Assembly (NCBI GenBank): GCA_000697665.1
Contig: KL197715.1
Span: forward strand, 1,448,168-1,512,167
DNA: 64,000 nucleotides
Reading direction: 5' to 3'
Source: Jaapia argillacea MUCL 33604
Lineage: Eukaryota; Basidiomycota; Agaricomycetes; Jaapiales; Jaapiaceae
The notes under the pieces are model-generated. The model saw nothing but the letters and a program-made list of their open reading frames with translations. It made no database searches and was not told the DNA's origin. Of this stretch, positions 19,767 to 64,000 are shown piece after piece. The translations under genes and the position numbers were made by a program. The first letter of the stretch is position 1. The number at the start of each line of letters is the position of its first letter.

Positions 19767-22700
19767 TTACAGCCCATTCCACTCAAACCCTTTCTGAACA
19801 CTAAATCCACCCTCCAAAACCATCTTCTCACAACTCGCTCCAACCCTAACACCATACCACCCACTCTCCACCACCCAACTCCCAATCCTATCCTCCCAAT
19901 ACGAAACGGCATACTTATCCAACGGCAATTCCACAACTTTACTTGCTCCTGGAGCCAGATCTCGTACTTTTGCAAAGGCTTTGAGCATGAGAGGTGGGTG
20001 GGTCAAGTCGGAGGTGGTTGGGAGTGTTACGTATAGTTGGACTATCTCGGAGCCGGGGAGGGAACCTGTGTTGGTGATTGTGACTGAGGCTGTTAGGTTG
20101 ATGTCGGTTTTGCTTAGGGATGGTTTTGTGAATTTGAGGTCGGTGTAGGAGAAGGTTGTGTAGGAGAGACCGTGGCTGTTGATAGCGGTGTTAGGAAGAT
20201 GAAGAGAAAGGAAGAGACGAGTCTGTGATTTACGTACCCGAAAGCGAAGGCAGGTTCGATCTTGCGTTGCGCAAAGTGTTTATAACCCTACCAAACCACA
20301 TATCAGTGATAACGCCCCCAATCATCAAAAGACCCGAACACTTACAACGAACAAATCCTCTCCATACCTCACCTTTCCATTCTCATGATGGAAATGCCCA
20401 TGAGCGGGTACGTCCTCCAAGCGTTTGGGGAAAGTCAAGGATAATTTGCCAGAAGGGTTGACTTTGCCTAGCAAGACGTCGGCAATGGCTTCTCCCGTTG
20501 CGTTACCCAAATACCAAGAGTGAACGATGGCGGCTACCGAGTCGGCCCATGGCATCGTTATCGCAGATCCCTGTGTGACGAGAAAACATCAGTGTTTGAT
20601 GGAAGGGAAAGCAAAAAGGTACGTACAGCTTGAGTGACGACGATGGTGTTAGGGTTCGCTTTAGCGACCTTTTCAACCAACTCATCCGTCCTCCCAGGTA
20701 GCGCAAGCGTAACCCTATCATACCCCTCCGTCTACCACACACCCACACGTGCATCAGCCTCATAAAAAAAACCACAAAAACCAAGAAAAAACCGTACCTC
20801 CCAATCCCCATTCAACCCCACAACAGCCACAACCAAATCAGCCTCTCTAGCAACCTCAACAGCCTTCTCCATCTCCTCATCAGCCTCCCTAACCTCCGCT
20901 CCACCCAACCTAACACCAGGATTCGAATCCATCACACTCTCATCTTCATCCCCGTCCGCTGGTCCTCTTACGTTGCAGAATTCTACTAGGATGGAATGGG
21001 CTTTGTGGGCTTTGAGTGGGTAAGTGCCTTTTTCTTCTAGGGTTCCGGCGTTGAAGAAGTATTCGCCGCGGCGTTGGCGGGTCCAGTTGTCGATTACGAG
21101 TTTGCCGTCAACGTAGAGCTGGGGGGACCCAATTATTAGCCATCACGTCTTAACGAGGTACGAAGGGAGAGAGCCAGCCAGCCAGCAACTGAAAAGCAAC
21201 TCACCTTTGCTCTCCCAGCAGCAATCAACCCAAACTCAAACAAACAATCCTCCTCCCTCTTAATCACACCCTCCAATTTCAAAGTCCACCTCTTCGTAAT
21301 CCCCACGGGTGCTTCTGCACTGATGAAGATCCTAGTTTCGTCTATAACTTGTTTTTTGAATGGGACGGAGAGGGGAGTCATGGAATCGGGTGAGGTGTGG
21401 GAGTACCAGGTTCCTAACCATCCTGGTTGGCCGGAGGGAGTGAATATGTCGTAATCGAGGGACGGGAGGGTCATGTATGCTTTGAACATCCCAAAAAAGT
21501 CAGTATCGTTGGTTTGGGGGCTGGGAAGGAAGGGACAACTCACTCCTTGCACCCTCAGCATAAGTAACCTCAACATCTTTCCCCAACGCCCCCACAATCC
21601 CCTCAAAAGGCGAGACATAATAACTAGGTTTGAGAGCAGCCGAGCCACCACCGCTCAAGACTATAGCTTTCGCGTTCCCTCCTACAATCGCTATTTTCTT
21701 GATTTTGGATGGGTTGAGGGGGAGGAGGGGGGAGGAAGAGGGAGAGGGAGGAGAGTTCTTGAGGAGGACGATTGATTCTGATGCTACTTTCTTCATGAGG
21801 AGCTTATCGGCTGGTGATTCCCTCGTATACTCTTTCCCATCTCCGTCCAACACCTACATCAAACCCAGCGTAGCACATCAGTACTTCTCCCCCTCGCACA
21901 AACAAATAAAGGGAGGGAACGCACCTCAGGGGCACCAGCAGCACATTTCTTAACCATCTCCAAAACCTTCTTAGCTCGTTCTTTCACGGTCCTAACCATT
22001 ATTTTCCTACTTCCTATTGATCTGTTCATGAGATCGAGAGTGCGCCATTTGTTTGTGCCGGGCATTTCGAGGTCGAGGCCTGCGTTTAGGGCGTGGTCTA
22101 TTGAGTAGATGCCGAACCTGGGAGGTGGTGTTAGCGGGGGAGGAGGAGGGGGGTGAGAAGGAGGAGGGTGGAGAAAGCAAGGGAGATGAAGGGGATAAGG
22201 AAAGGGGGAAAGGCGAGGAACGAACATACCAATCCGACATGATCATCCCCTCGAACCCCCATTCCTTCCTCAAGATATCACGAATCAAAGCCGGGTTCTC
22301 TGAACAATGCGTTCCGTTCACCCTATTATACCTATGTGAGAGTAAAGCGGTCAGCTACGAGTAAATCGATGAGGAGAGGGGGGACGGACGCGGTCATGTA
22401 ACACCAAGGCTGAGCGTATTTCTGAGCCAACATGAATGGCATTAGGTATATCTCGCGGAGAGCGCGGGGGGAGAGGATGGAATCGTATGCCATTCTGTCG
22501 TTTTCTTTGTCGTTGCATCTGTAGGTGGTGGGTGTGAGGATGGGGAAGCAGGGAAGGAGGGAAGAGGTACGTACACGAAATGCTTGATACAAGCTCCGAT
22601 ACCTCCTTTCTGTACGCCGTTGATATAAGACGAAGCGATCATGCCAGAGAGGAAAGGGTCTTCTGAGAAACTTTCGAAAGCCTTTATTTGAAGTTAGCAT

Positions 22701-39834: not shown

Positions 39835-42800
39835 CCGTGGCAGTGATGTCACTGTTGTCTGTTTACCCACGGTGCCACTTTCGACTTCATCCTTATTGCA
39901 CTGGCAGTTCGTTCGTCGTGAACAGCCTACAGTAACCGGGTCTTCGAGTTTTCCAACTTCGAGCGTCTCTCTCTACCAACGGAGAACGATCGCACTGCAT
40001 ACAGACATGGTTGGCTCATCGGTCCCACACTCTGGAGCCTTTCAATATACCAGGTACCATCGAGATTTGCAGCAACTGTGCCTGGTGAGTCTCCAATAGC
40101 ATGGCGCAACTGGGCAAGATCTCCTCATAGGCGCAGATCTCGAGGTGCTGAAGCAGGGCAAGGCACGGGCGAGTGGTCCTTGCAGGGCTTGTCGATCTTC
40201 ACGTCTTGGACAAGCTGCGGACCAGCTCAGGCTGTCGATGGAAGTTGTCACGGAGTTGAACGCCTTTTCGCCGTGCCTTCTATTCGTCAATGTATGGTCC
40301 GTGCTGCACATTACCGTCGCCTCCTACTAACGAGAGAGCACGACGATAACGGTTTGTCCCCCATTACAGATACGCTATAATGAGCAACGCACCCCCAAAC
40401 GTTCCCCCGGTCATGCGGAAGTTCGGCGCTAGGACAGTTACGCACAAAATTCAGCTTTCTTCGCCTTGAATACAATTGCGTGGGTGCTGATCGGAGGACG
40501 CTGCCGTATCGTCACCCTGCTGTCCACAGTTTCTCCCACGTCGTGAAGTCAATTCGGTGAGTATGACCACTATTTGATCCACATTTTGACTGCCAATCTT
40601 GACAGCCATTTGTCGTCCTTCCCATCTGACGTGGCCGGCGTTCATTTCAATCCCAATTGACTCGGTATGGTACTTTCCAAACTGCCCACTCAGGGATGGG
40701 CGATCTTCTGCTTTCAAATACGTTAACTTTACTGATGTCATTCTGAACGTTCTGCAAGTTTTCGCCGACTTGACGGTCTCACCATGTAGAGCATGATGCA
40801 AGTTTATGTGCTGGCTTCGAGAAGCAACGGCAACAACATCGTTCCGCATTCCAACAGATTAGTCTGCCACGCAAACTCCCCCAACCGTACATCAGATGCA
40901 CGTCATGTGCCAACATCCCACTTATCTCGGTCGGACCGAAGATGCTGAACACCGCTGTGCCAGACATCATGCTGAGGGAACAAATAGCCAACAGGACTCT
41001 CGCGCTTGGAACTTCTCTTCTCGCTATCCCACAAGTGTCTTGCGATCGTACCCTGCGTTCACCCGCGGACCCACGTCCTCGTGGATTCACCTCTCTGTTT
41101 CAAGAATTTGTAATGTGAACATTCGCGGACAAATGTGAACGCCGAGACCAAACCAAACTCCCCATCCTTCTGCTGATCCTGATGTTCCGACCACATTCGA
41201 GCTGGCAATGTAGAGTCTGACCGGATGAGGCCTCATTGAAGAGTGCGACAGTCGCATCGCACAGTCATCATCTAACAAAATGAATTTCATATCATCAATA
41301 AAGCCTCACTACCATTCGTAAGTTCTTTCATTTCTCGATCACCACAAAAGCTAAACTGTGCACGTTTACGCTTTCAGAACAAGGGCGACCCTGATCAACA
41401 TGATCACCGCGTTTTCGCCACCAGATTTGACAGAAAATGACGATCCGCGTACGGGTCATGTTTTCCTTTCGGTACCGCGGGAGCGCCGACCTTTACCATA
41501 AGCGGCAAGGCTGCTTTGACAAGCTCGCTTTTAGCTGGATTCCTCATCCAGGGTTCTCTCGGGAAGCTTTCAATCTTTCTGTAAGGTTTGGGGTTCTGTG
41601 CAGTGCCCGTGGGTGGGTTATTCGTCCTGTTTCAGAGAGTTTTCGAGCGCCAAGGTATGTCCGTGACTGTACAGAGGGCGCTTTACCTCTTCACTTTGGG
41701 CCCCTCCCTTTCTGCTCGATTGTTGACCTAATTACCTCCTCTTAGACCACTTGAGTCACCGGACGTATCGCGGTTGGCTTTCGTTCCTCTGCCAGCGTGA
41801 TAGCAATTTCCAATTTCCAATGCCCTAGATGGAGATTCGCGGCATCCCGGCATGAACATTCCTCTCGAAGAGTCGAAAGCATCTTTTGGATGTTCATCGC
41901 GGAACGATTTGCATTAATTCAAGATCCATCGCCTTTCATCCTCGTATAATCTGATTGTGATTGTGGCACCGAGGAGACCTTCGCGGAGTCAGGAAATGGC
42001 AGTTACGTCATGATGATTGGCAGCCAACCGACACGATCGCGTCGCAGCTGCATCTCAGCGACACAATGTCAGGGTGGATGGACAAGGATAAAGGACGAAG
42101 CTTGAATGTATGTATCTTTCTTACGTCTACGATGGGTAGTTAGTCGTCCTTTTAGGATGCAGCCTAACATCCGTTATTCAAATGCCGTAGGCGTTGAGAA
42201 ACCTCCCTCAATCCCAGGGCTTCTTTTCAAGAAATTCCGACCACCCCCGACCAGCTTCACGATGAAATCCCGTATGTCGTCCCAGGACTCCCTTCCTATC
42301 CTTTCGGGTGTTTCGTGTTGGTCGCGTAGCTTCCCCCATCCCTTTTGGCGTTCTCAAGATGTTAGCGTCTTCGGTAAGCCCTGTATTTGTATGCCGCTTA
42401 GGTTGAAATCCAATGTTCATCGTCGATAGATATTCTGACCTCGGATCTGGCACTGCGCTGTGCCTACACTGCCATGTCGCCAATTTGTTCTTGCCAGCAA
42501 AGCTCCGGGTCTTCGCCATCCCTTGGTCACTTCCTTTGACCGAAAACCTTCTGGATTATTCTACGTTTATGGCTCGGACCACAGCCGACCCCACTGCTGT
42601 TATCCACGCATCTATTCTGCCGGTCACATGTTTGTGACTTTCTCTTCTCCGTCTGTTGGTCTTCGACATCTGGATGACCCAGGCGATCTTGCGATACTGT
42701 CCACTATTTTTTCCTGGGCGCTTCCTCCACCCCACAGCCTTCGACCTAAGCTTGGTACACTCCAGGAGAACTCGTGACTCTCTTCTTGTGAGTAGGCCGT

Positions 42801-60886: not shown

Positions 60887-61486
60887 TTAGGAGGGGAGGG
60901 GCTCGGTTGTTCCTGGAGTTTCGACGGTATTGAGGGGATTGTAGTTACCCGTGAGGAGCGGTATGTCGTGGGCATGGTAAGTAGGATCACATGAGGTCCA
61001 TTGTGCGGGGGAATACAACGAACAGAAAGCGAGACACCAGATGAGCATCAAGAACCACAATTCAAGTATACTGACAATGTCAAAACAGAAGTCGTCCTTC
61101 TGTCCACCCCAAGGTGTCCGAAATGTCTCGTATCGTTCACATCCCAGACCCTGGTCCTCAAACTGCAATCGGGGATCATACAATTTGAAACTAACCATCC
61201 TCGCAGCATGGCTCCAAAAACAGTCGAACAGCGGGTGTTCCGTAGATTTCCCGTAAACCCAATGACACTCCACAGGGGTGGTGTGGACCAGTCTTGATAA
61301 CGTCGTCAAGTTCGCATTTGTGAGTTTGGGTTTCCGCCATTGTCCACCTCCATGACCCTCGACGGGAACAACGTCAATGTTCTTTATGATGTTCAAACTG
61401 CACAAAAAATAAAAAGTGCCCCACACACCTGAATTTGACCAATGAGACTCAAATTTGGGTGAATGTGAGGTAAATTTGTTGGTCAA
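60887..61486 (-). CDS. Hypothetical protein with hydrophobic segments
   Basis: Uninterrupted 199-codon frame. The middle (VECHWVYGKSTEHPLFDCFW, then FKLYDPRLQFEDQGLG) looks like a folded domain rich in aromatic residues, His and Cys. One strongly hydrophobic stretch (ILELWFLMLIWCLAFCSLY) is a probable membrane helix. A candidate intron-like stretch (gtgtgt to tttgtgcag) lies near the 5' end, so the true start may be downstream of 61486. No family recognised. It borders the repeat region and could be lineage-specific or a remnant. Confidence 0.45.
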   Translation of the reverse strand: MTNKFTSHSPKFESHWSNSGVWGTFYFLCSLNIIKNIDVVPVEGHGGGQWRKPKLTNANLTTLSRLVHTTPVECHWVYGKSTEHPLFDCFWSHAARMVSFKLYDPRLQFEDQGLGCERYETFRTPWGGQKDDFCFDIVSILELWFLMLIWCLAFCSLYSPAQWTSCDPTYHAHDIPLLTGNYNPLNTVETPGTTEPLPS

Positions 61487-61710
61487 GAACTAAATTATAT
61501 AGGAAACAGTGGAACTCATGTGGGCTTAAGCCAGCATGGAGCTGGCCTGTCTTGTTCGAAGACATTCTGAATTAGTTAGGCTGGTGTCACCTTGACCTGT
61601 CCTTGTTCATTACATGCAATCAGTCCATAGATATATTGATTGTAACTATGCTCGAAAGGTGACAGGCATGTGTAAATCAAAGTTGTTGTCCCGGAGTGGC
61701 GCGTGCAACA

Positions 61711-62032
61711 TCAGATGAATGTGATGGGCAGGAGCTACTGCCCGCACATTAAGCAAATGTGATGTGCGGGCGATGTTGAATGGATACATACAAATAATAA
61801 TAGTGCCACTTAGTTAAGGCCCATTGTGATTTAGCTCTGCCGCTCAGATAGATTTCAGATTCTGTGTTTAACGAAGATTGACAACGTGTGGGCAAGATAG
61901 ATGACAGGAGCAAATGTAGTATAAATACTATTCACGATGGCGCAATATTATTAGTATGAGATTGAATGTGATGGGCAGCAGCAACTGCCCGCGCATTGAG
62001 TAGATGTGATGTGCGGGAGATGTTGAACGACA
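61711..62032 (+). repeat. Hairpin-bearing repeat module, direct copies
   Basis: Two similar hairpin blocks start near 61714 and 61961, each reading gatgggcag...ctgcccgc(a/g)catt, a short loop, then gatgtgcggg. The stretch 61811-61895 (ggccc...tctgtgtt...gtgggcaag) matches 62070-62157 inside the fold-back arm, so this is a diverged direct copy of that arm. No coding capacity. Confidence 0.75.
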
Positions 62033-62886
62033 TGCACACTTGAAACTTACAAGACATATTGTAACTGAGTTGAGGCCCGTTGCCGTTTAGCGCTGGAACA
62101 TGGATAGCTATTTGGGATTCTGTGTTGAATGAAGATCATTTACAACGAGTGGGCAAGGGGAAGGGAGCAAGCACATACTACTGTCCGTGCATTGAGTAAA
62201 TGAGATGTGCGGGGGATGTGGACAGTCACATGTCACTGAGAAGAGTGATATAGATCATCTGGGTTGATGATGGAATGAATGCGTAGTTGCTGAGCGTCTG
62301 GAAGCAGTCAAGCCAGCTGGCATACGATTGTCAGAGTTGAGTTGGCAACGATAATAGTAAATATTGTATAGATATATATTGCAAGGCAGAGGCGGCCATG
62401 TACCCCACACATTGGATGAATGCGATGTGCGGGAGAAGGATGTTGGAATAAGATGTAATATTTGTAAAGGAGAGCCAGCCGTGTGCCTGCACATCGCATT
62501 CATCTGATGTGCGGGGTACATGGCCACCTCTGCCTTGCAATATATATTTATACAATATTTACTATTATCATTGCCAACTCAACTCCGACAATCGTATGCC
62601 AGCTGGCTTGACTGCTTCCAGACGCTCAGCAACTACGCATTCATTCCATCATCAACCCAGATGATCTATATCACTCTTCTCAGTGACGCGTGACTGCCCA
62701 CATCCCCCGCACATCTCATTTACTCAATGCGCGGGCAGTAGTATGTGCTTGCTCCCTTCCCCTTGCCCACTCGTTGTAAATGATCTTCGTTCAACACAGA
62801 ATCCCAAATAGCTATCCATGTTCCAGCGCTAAACAGCAACGGGCCTCAACTCAGTTACAATATGTCTCATAAGTTTTGAGTGTGGG
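62033..62886. repeat. Large fold-back element: 401-bp inverted arms, 52-bp loop
   Basis: Left arm 62033-62433 and right arm 62486-62886 are inverted copies. They align without net length change and show scattered single-base differences, mostly transitions. The unpaired centre is 62434-62485. Within each arm the motif cccgc(a/g)cat...atgtgcggg repeats. No transposase, and no clear target-site duplication at the ends. Best described as a non-autonomous fold-back or MITE-like element, or a palindrome formed by inverted duplication. Confidence 0.85.
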
Positions 62887-63430
62887 CGCTCAGCTCAACA
62901 GATGGTCATTGCTCCAGATGATGCAGAGATTGTAAAGAAAAACAAAAATCAATCAATGATTCAGAGTTCCCTGTGTTGTATTCTGTATTTTGATTCATAT
63001 ACTCCAGGTCAAGGACAGGTAGAGGAGGCATCAGCGACTTCCGAGAGATGGTTGAGCTCCAAGCGACCCCATCAATATTTGTAAAGTGAGATCAAGCAAT
63101 TTCCCAGTACTATTGGTTGGTGGGTAGAAAGAATGGACTGAAGTCGCGACAACTTGCGCGCATTGAGTTCCAACGATGTGCGCTCATTCATGTAGAACCT
63201 TCCGTCAAGTTTGAATGCACATCAACCAGAGTAGCTGAGTCCATGACCGACAAGGTATTGGTGCATCTTGCGGAGCCCCTGATTTATGGAGACGCACACA
63301 TCGGTGACGACGGATGTGCGAAGGTACCCTTGCAAGGGATCCTGTTGATATTGTAATCACAGTATTCCAAATTAAGATATCTCAATCACATGACTGTCTG
63401 GTGGTCGCCACGAGGCAAAGAAATTGTTTT
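62887..63430. other. Spacer between repeats, no gene
   Basis: ORFs of at most 79 codons (for example 63117-63356), none recognisable. Confidence 0.4.
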
Positions 63431-63520
63431 AGGTGGGAGCGAGCGCGAAGCGCGAGCGAATCAAGATAAGTCGAAAGGAGTAAAGAATAACAGGCTATCC
63501 GAAGAGTAGACACTGTTTCG
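63431..63520 (+). repeat. Direct repeat, copy 1 (GC-rich palindromic core)
   Basis: Begins aggtgggagcgagcgcgaag and continues through a near-palindromic GC core into tcgaaaggagtaaagaataa and cactgttt. About 90 bp, repeated 480 bp downstream. Could be part of a terminal repeat of a transposable element or of a longer tandem repeat cut by the window edge. Confidence 0.8.
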
Positions 63521-63910
63521 ATAATCTCTTCAGACTCTTTACTCTAGGCTTTTATATTACCTGGCATGGGTTCCGGCCCGAACTAACCCCAGAGTACCCA
63601 TGAGAGAATTCCCATCGGGGAATGATATACCCGTTCTCCATCACAGCCAACACGGTCAGCGGGCAGAGCGAATCTTGCCATGACACAAGGACTGCACCCG
63701 TAATAGGTCTGCGAAGCAGAAGCATAGCCACCCAGCCGACCATGGGTCAAACCGGAATGCGCAGTAACCCCCACGACCGTCCGTTCAGGTCTTACTTTAG
63801 GTATAATTGCTACGGGACAAGTAGTCAGTGATTTATGCTATTGGTCGCAAGCGTATGGCGAAATACACGCTGTCAGTCCAAACAGAGTTAGTGTGTGGAG
63901 GGTTAGGGTT
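63521..63910. other. Interior of the 480-bp repeat unit
   Basis: No coding sequence supported. Ends with a telomere-like motif, gggttagggttagggg, at about 63898-63915. Confidence 0.5.
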
Positions 63911-64000
63911 AGGGGGGAGCGAGCGCGAAGCGCGAGCGAATCAAACTAAGTCGAAAGGAGTAAAGAATAACAGGTGTTCCGGTGGGAGACAACACTGTTT
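63911..64000 (+). repeat. Direct repeat, copy 2 (cut by window end)
   Basis: Second copy of the 90-bp GC-palindrome repeat at 63431, offset exactly 480 bp at its start. It differs at a few bases (tcaaacta for tcaagata) and by a 2-bp indel near the end. The window stops inside the unit. Confidence 0.8.

Follow-up and report, generated by a model that had tools for sequence, protein, structure and literature searches.

The fold-back of DNA described here, from Jaapia argillacea, has its closest described counterparts in the fold-back inversions of Saccharomyces cerevisiae and in the Mutator/Foldback-type elements, to which Tm1 of root-knot nematodes, a non-autonomous transposon, reportedly belongs (PMC3169594). 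In yeast, hairpins with stems of 4-15 bp mediate fold-back inversions, those with loops of at least 15 nt being a class of their own (PMC7467729), and in the part of that report drawn on here all of the fold-back inversions underwent secondary rearrangement. The fold-back priming model set out in PMC10622511 runs to a dicentric chromosome. In a yeast strain whose telomeres are uncapped, rearrangement is still driven by divergent inverted repeats lying up to ~50 kb from the end (PMC10164571). Transposons of some fungi show CpG-type C-to-T decay, for which Microbotryum and Tuber give a strong signal, Puccinia and Melampsora a weak one (PMC4352252).

The present locus would share with the yeast inversions an inverted copy made by way of a short stem and a loop, here 9 bp and 52 nt, a loop size belonging to the class of 15 nt or more; it differs in being interstitial, in its length of 399 bp and in having a repeated dyad as the putative seed, and it is known from sequence alone, as compared with the yeast cases in the parts of PMC7467729 and PMC10622511 cited above. 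We read it as a putatively subtelomeric inverted duplication, a fold-back inversion scar without a recognised gene, which would have been seeded by dyad half-sites and then have undergone CpG decay, and we give this reading a probability of roughly 0.55. The window analysed is the last 64 kb of a contig (C7:1448168-1512167) in an assembly of 43.7 Mb and 95 contigs, and the fold-back in it consists of three parts:

62035..62433, + strand: left arm of the fold-back, holding dyads H3L and H4L (arm alignment)
62434..62485, no strand: spacer (loop) of 52 bp, starting with the apparent tail of the H4 unit (arm alignment, dyad scan)
62486..62884, - strand: right arm, inverted copy of the left arm, with 19 transitions, 16 of them CpG-consistent (arm alignment)

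The fold-back is confirmed as a DNA structure. Its arms, 399 bp each, are identical at 380 of 399 positions (95.2%), with 19 mismatches, no indel and a 52-bp spacer between them. Two inverted arms around a 52-bp loop had been proposed in an earlier note made from the letters of the window, and both arms and loop are borne out; the arm size of 401 given there included two non-matching bases at each outer end, and 399 align. The base-by-base alignment, one of the two checks by which that note had let its claim stand or fall, is gapless, and identity is kept throughout at the level just given. When the 64-kb window was compared with itself by BLAST, inverted matches that were 50 bp or longer and had less than 5 kb between the arms came to two rows, both at this locus, and a candidate-limited search of the one assembly with the left arm, the BLASTN-type check of copy number that had been suggested, matched the two arms alone. 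Outward extension of the inverted arms scored 16, against a shuffle mean of 18.2 and maximum of 26, and past the inner ends at 62433 and 62486 no arm similarity was found. An inverted copy of the neighbouring segment, a short spacer and no other copy found are the marks of an inverted duplication, and the locus has all three.

The end of the contig is occupied by a repeat:

63425..64000, + strand: contig-end repeat, putatively telomere-associated, with two TTAGGG units at 63903-63914

These terminal 576 bp match at least 31 places genome-wide, their own copy counted. By hand count, 27 of the 31 places found sit within 20 kb of a contig end, and in 26 of these 27 the repeat is oriented outward, the exception being on contig C92; the remaining four are one place on C84 and three at 89-94 kb on C1. 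Since the window ends at a contig end and carries an end-enriched repeat, the fold-back locus is probably subtelomeric, a status that is likely but unproven because no long telomere array was seen; among the scanned loci L010 to L072, three or more TTAGGG in a row occur in L030 and L045 only, which overlap on C1. No plasmid relatives were found. As an observation in its own right, the contig-end repeat, with its TTAGG-type starts and its core GAGCGCGAAGCGCGAGCG, is a handy marker of putative subtelomeres.

The repeated stems that the earlier note had seen inside the arms hold up as one 30-nt dyad motif, a 9-nt half followed by 12 nt and a reverse-complementary 9-nt half, with a consensus of about CCCGCRCAT-N12-ATGTGCGGG. 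Eight dyads lie within 1.6 kb, two of them (H5 and H6) outside the fold-back to its right, and pair at 6 to 9 of 9 positions, G-U counted. They are given here together with the older direct units on the left:

61716..61962, + strand: older direct unit U1, the aligned part of which, 61716-61896, is 74% identical to U2 (alignment)
61741..61770, + strand: dyad H1, 9 + 12 + 9 nt (motif scan)
61963..62158, + strand: older direct unit U2, spanning the left arm's outer edge at 62035 (alignment)
61988..62017, + strand: dyad H2 (motif scan)
62184..62213, + strand: dyad H3L, left arm (motif scan)
62404..62433, + strand: dyad H4L, its right edge exactly the left arm's inner end (arm alignment, motif scan)
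62486..62515, - strand: dyad H4R, its edge exactly the right arm's inner end (arm alignment, motif scan)
62706..62735, - strand: dyad H3R, right arm (motif scan)
63155..63184, + strand: dyad H5, outside the fold-back (motif scan)
63293..63322, + strand: dyad H6, outside the fold-back, decayed, with 6/9 pairs (motif scan)

A window scan allowing at most 2 mismatches of 14 at the 12-nt spacing gave 9 matches, which are the eight dyads plus a ninth site at 40886; over the 20 alternative spacings from 4 to 24 there were 5 matches altogether, in 20 mononucleotide shuffles 3 altogether, and in the reversed window 0. Motif and spacing had been derived from the copies before scanning, and the scans were not blind. 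A strict pattern, likewise made from the copies, occurs at 6 places genome-wide, 5 of them here, with 0 for a reversed control pattern; the sole strict match beyond this locus is at C31:342990-343015. Hairpins as such are not unusual in the window, where stems of at least 9 pairs number 243 in overlapping counts, and only the specific motif and its spacing stand out. H5 has loop letters in common with H2 and H3 and is therefore probably a true copy; those of H6 are not shared with them. Elsewhere in the genome, at L005:1501-1526 (C35:109939-109964), the same half-sites stand 8 nt apart in a perfect palindrome of 26 nt, CCCGCACATGAAATTTCATGTGCGGG.

The older units give an order of events. U1 (61716-61896) and U2 (61963-62157) are 74% identical, with 17 transitions and 20 transversions; a diverged direct copy to the left had been noted before, correctly as to its presence, and there are two such copies, not a single one. 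Because the alignment of U1 with U2 runs across 62035, the left arm's outer edge, and nothing is mirrored past the right arm, the inverted copy postdates the direct array. On the right, a wider alignment of the flank with the direct units was not above shuffles, save for a 24-bp stretch, 63074-63097, which spacer positions 62457-62479 resemble (score 31, against a maximum of 25 in 60 shuffles) and which may be another remnant of the old array.

The inner ends of the arms, 62433 and 62486, are the exact edges of H4L and H4R, a coincidence with a chance of roughly 1% by a hand estimate from counting dyad edges. The 9-nt half-sites at this junction, 62425-62433 and 62486-62494, form an inverted repeat with one CpG-type mismatch today, and since the halves of a dyad are complementary, a 3' end bearing one half can anneal to the half of another dyad. 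The inverted duplication may then have arisen as follows. An older, degenerate direct array with a 30-nt dyad in each unit would have been hit by a break or by stalled synthesis, and a 3' end that carried the left half of some dyad would have turned back on itself and paired with the right half-site of H4, a priming geometry of a 9-bp stem and a 52-nt loop. Synthesis would have copied ~399 bp of the array backwards before the copy exited early and rejoined the downstream DNA; the early exit is assumed, because the yeast products, as described in the parts of the reports cited above, are large, dicentric or rearranged and the copy here is interstitial and of 399 bp. Once duplicated, both arms would have been depleted of CpGs through C-to-T changes, the decay to be expected if the DNA is methylated. 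Against priming it must be said that no separate copy survives of the partner dyad that would have supplied the left half-site, and the priming step therefore cannot be shown; at the exit point, no microhomology was demonstrated.

All 19 of the differences between the arms are transitions, and 16 of the 19 are CpG-consistent, that is, an ancestral CG is now TG or CA in one arm, or TG stands opposite CA. When 19 random transitions were placed on the arm, a mean of 4.9 and a maximum of 13 were CpG-consistent, and 16 or more were reached in 0 of 5000 trials; the concentration of transitions at CpG is that expected of 5-methylcytosine decay. The T or A state is in the left arm 11 times and in the right arm 8 times by hand count, and so both arms have apparently decayed. 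The divergence, judged from the sequence, fits the decay of what would have been methylated CpGs after duplication. Cytosine (C5) methyltransferase domains are present in the genome, and with the fungal repeats treated in the part of PMC4352252 used here the locus shares both these domains and CpG transitions on repeated DNA; it differs in that the signal comes from the two arms of one locus and that methylation is read from it indirectly. The earlier note was right that the arms differ little (19 differences in 399 bp) and took this for a recent or gene-converted origin. The few differences agree with that in so far as 3 of 399 positions lie outside the CpG type, and no conversion tract was shown. 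Gene conversion between the arms was rejected on a judgement by eye, the differences being spread over the whole arm with a longest clean run of ~100 bp.

Low CpG is not special to the fold-back locus. The observed/expected ratio is 0.64-0.87 in five segments of 61000-63424, as against 0.94 for 1-61000; all five being low, it is the whole neighbourhood that is CpG-poor and not the fold-back alone. The contig-end repeat (63425-64000) has a ratio of 1.02. In 850-bp steps over the window the lowest values are 0.62 and 0.63, at 21251 and 20826, with the fold-back third at 0.66; the stretch 20826-22100, which holds this minimum of the window (0.62-0.63 per 850 bp), is perhaps another decayed repeat. 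Across 21 sampled stretches beside contig-end repeats the ratio lies between 0.30 and 1.20, with the highest value in a stretch that has 729 masked bases, and from this spread the decay is patchy.

The same 21 stretches, a few of which lie 1 to 17 kb inside a contig, contain one other long fold-back, on contig C42, as well as 40-42-nt inverted matches on C35 and C92. Long fold-backs thus number 2 in 22 sampled stretches, the end of the window included, the sole interior control being the rest of the window. Positions 61401-63424 matched none of the 21, and a family of the present fold-back near other contig-end repeats was rejected on that ground. The C42 fold-back does have relatives:

L049:2590-3319, strand not given: C42 fold-back, flanks matching at 8/9 bases (by eye)
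C4:1321606-1322365, strand not given: C42-family copy with a 9-bp duplication, CCTGGGACG (by eye), and ends CAGGCTCCTTAAACCAG
C3:1183483-1184644, strand not given: C42-family copy with a 9-bp duplication, GCCTAAGTC (by eye)
C33:128371-129179, strand not given: C42-family copy, by sequence match to C42

By their sequences these four form a Mutator/Foldback-like family of fold-back transposons, the 9-bp duplication being what we take to be the mark of Mutator-type elements. The C4 copy is far from contig ends, so fold-backs are not confined to them. Between arms, the C42 fold-back has 26 transitions, 9 transversions and 10 CpG-consistent differences, the C4 relative 6, 0 and 0, and the terminal repeats of the C3 copy 4, 3 and 0; with none that is CpG-consistent at C4 and C3, the CpG signature is absent from those copies. 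Around the C42 copy itself there are degenerate direct repeats, and the CpG ratio of its stretch is 0.30.

It is against this family that a transposon origin of the present locus has to be judged, namely that it is a non-autonomous fold-back element, for example of the Mutator/Foldback type with long terminal inverted repeats, and now a single decayed copy. The genome has such a family in C42 and its relatives and has MULE transposase domains, CpG decay is typical of silenced transposons, and the long inverted arms, short middle and lack of any gene found are common to both; but the two fold-backs have no sequence match and a relation between them was rejected, no second copy of the present arms was found in candidate-limited searches of one assembly, and the outer boundary falls inside an older repeat unit. 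Nor is there a target-site duplication at the outer ends, whether of 6-7 bp exactly or of 8-12 bp with at most 1 mismatch, so that neither the duplication of ~9 bp nor the several copies with shared ends of Mutator/Foldback elements are seen here. A transposon, while possible, is less likely than a fold-back-primed inverted duplication. That the locus is an error of assembly or sequencing is extremely improbable: it lies close to a contig end, where such a reading might be entertained, yet 19 of 19 transitions, 16 of them CpG-consistent, and no indels, with CpG-specific divergence on both arms, would be unexpected of an artefactual copy and argue against one, if indirectly. A protein-coding origin was likewise rejected for the ORFs scanned. 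Three that lie within or beside the locus (60887-61486, - strand; 62255-62575, - strand; 63117-63353, + strand) gave no Pfam match above cut-off, the best having 13.1 bits against 27; ten window ORFs gave two matches and two further ORFs inside the locus one, all below cut-off. The earlier statement that no coding gene explains the fold-back accordingly holds among the ORFs scanned.

The same note had suggested that a long hairpin transcript could feed the RNA-silencing pathway. On a reading of this kind a duplex of ~400 bp would be diced into small RNAs, perhaps keeping the chromosome end silent. The predicted fold is indeed very stable on both strands, at -768.2 and -762.9 kcal/mol against shuffle means of -251 and -241 (20 shuffles each), and Piwi and RNase III domains occur in the genome, with which a silencing role would be possible. 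Hairpin small RNAs have been reported from fungi, and the locus has in common with such milRNA and hpRNA loci a long fold-back whose transcript would be double-stranded, although it is known from DNA alone; the same source has only a fraction of the reported fungal loci surviving validation and natural long hairpin RNAs in need of exploration (PMC9757828). The sequence does not support the proposal: arm differences favour pairing on neither strand (10 G-U-preserving on the + strand against 9, by hand count), which led us to reject an RNA-pairing constraint on the arms, and the candidate-limited DNA search with the arm offers no long target elsewhere, only the two arms having matched. Rfam has no match in the window at gathering threshold; MIR6151, the sole match up to E = 1, scored 27.2 bits where the cut-off is 71 and was rejected. 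We hold a hairpin-RNA locus to be distinctly unlikely. It is very improbable, in turn, that the dyads are the functional part, as an array of binding sites for a dimeric protein or as extruding hairpins, and the large fold-back a by-product. The 12-nt spacing is kept in 8 of 8 dyads, two of them in flanks that, save for the 24-bp stretch, align with the units no better than shuffles, the half-site starts are 21 bp apart, about two helical turns, and 5 of the 6 strict genome matches are at this locus; however, motif and spacing were taken from the copies and then required by the scans, which builds in part of the regularity, H1-H5 have loop letters or flanks in common and may be mere copies, the variation of the half-sites is by eye mostly CpG-type change and not constraint, and the 21 other sampled stretches (83,874 bases) hold only two weak matches passing the 2-mismatch limit. 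A related proposal, improbable to us, is that the dyad cluster, near-unique to the locus in the assembly, may be a functional array that acts in cis at one chromosome end, with dimeric-protein sites nucleating silencing or replication, for example, and that the fold-back is a hairpin locus of unusual length that grew from one dyad; were an array of this kind present, this would be a case of a palindrome at a chromosome end being seeded by protein-binding dyads themselves.

We infer no selected function for the large hairpin, and the fold-back is most likely an unusual but explicable scar, not a demonstrated gene-silencing device. CpG-specific divergence between arms suggests itself as an in-sequence check that may tell real palindromes from inverted-read artefacts in draft genomes. 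Seeding of palindromes by short hairpins has been studied in yeast assay strains, in the parts of the reports cited here (PMC10164571; PMC10622511; PMC7467729); if the reading as an inverted duplication is right, the locus would be a natural, CpG-aged case of a small hairpin motif seeding a larger palindrome near a chromosome end.
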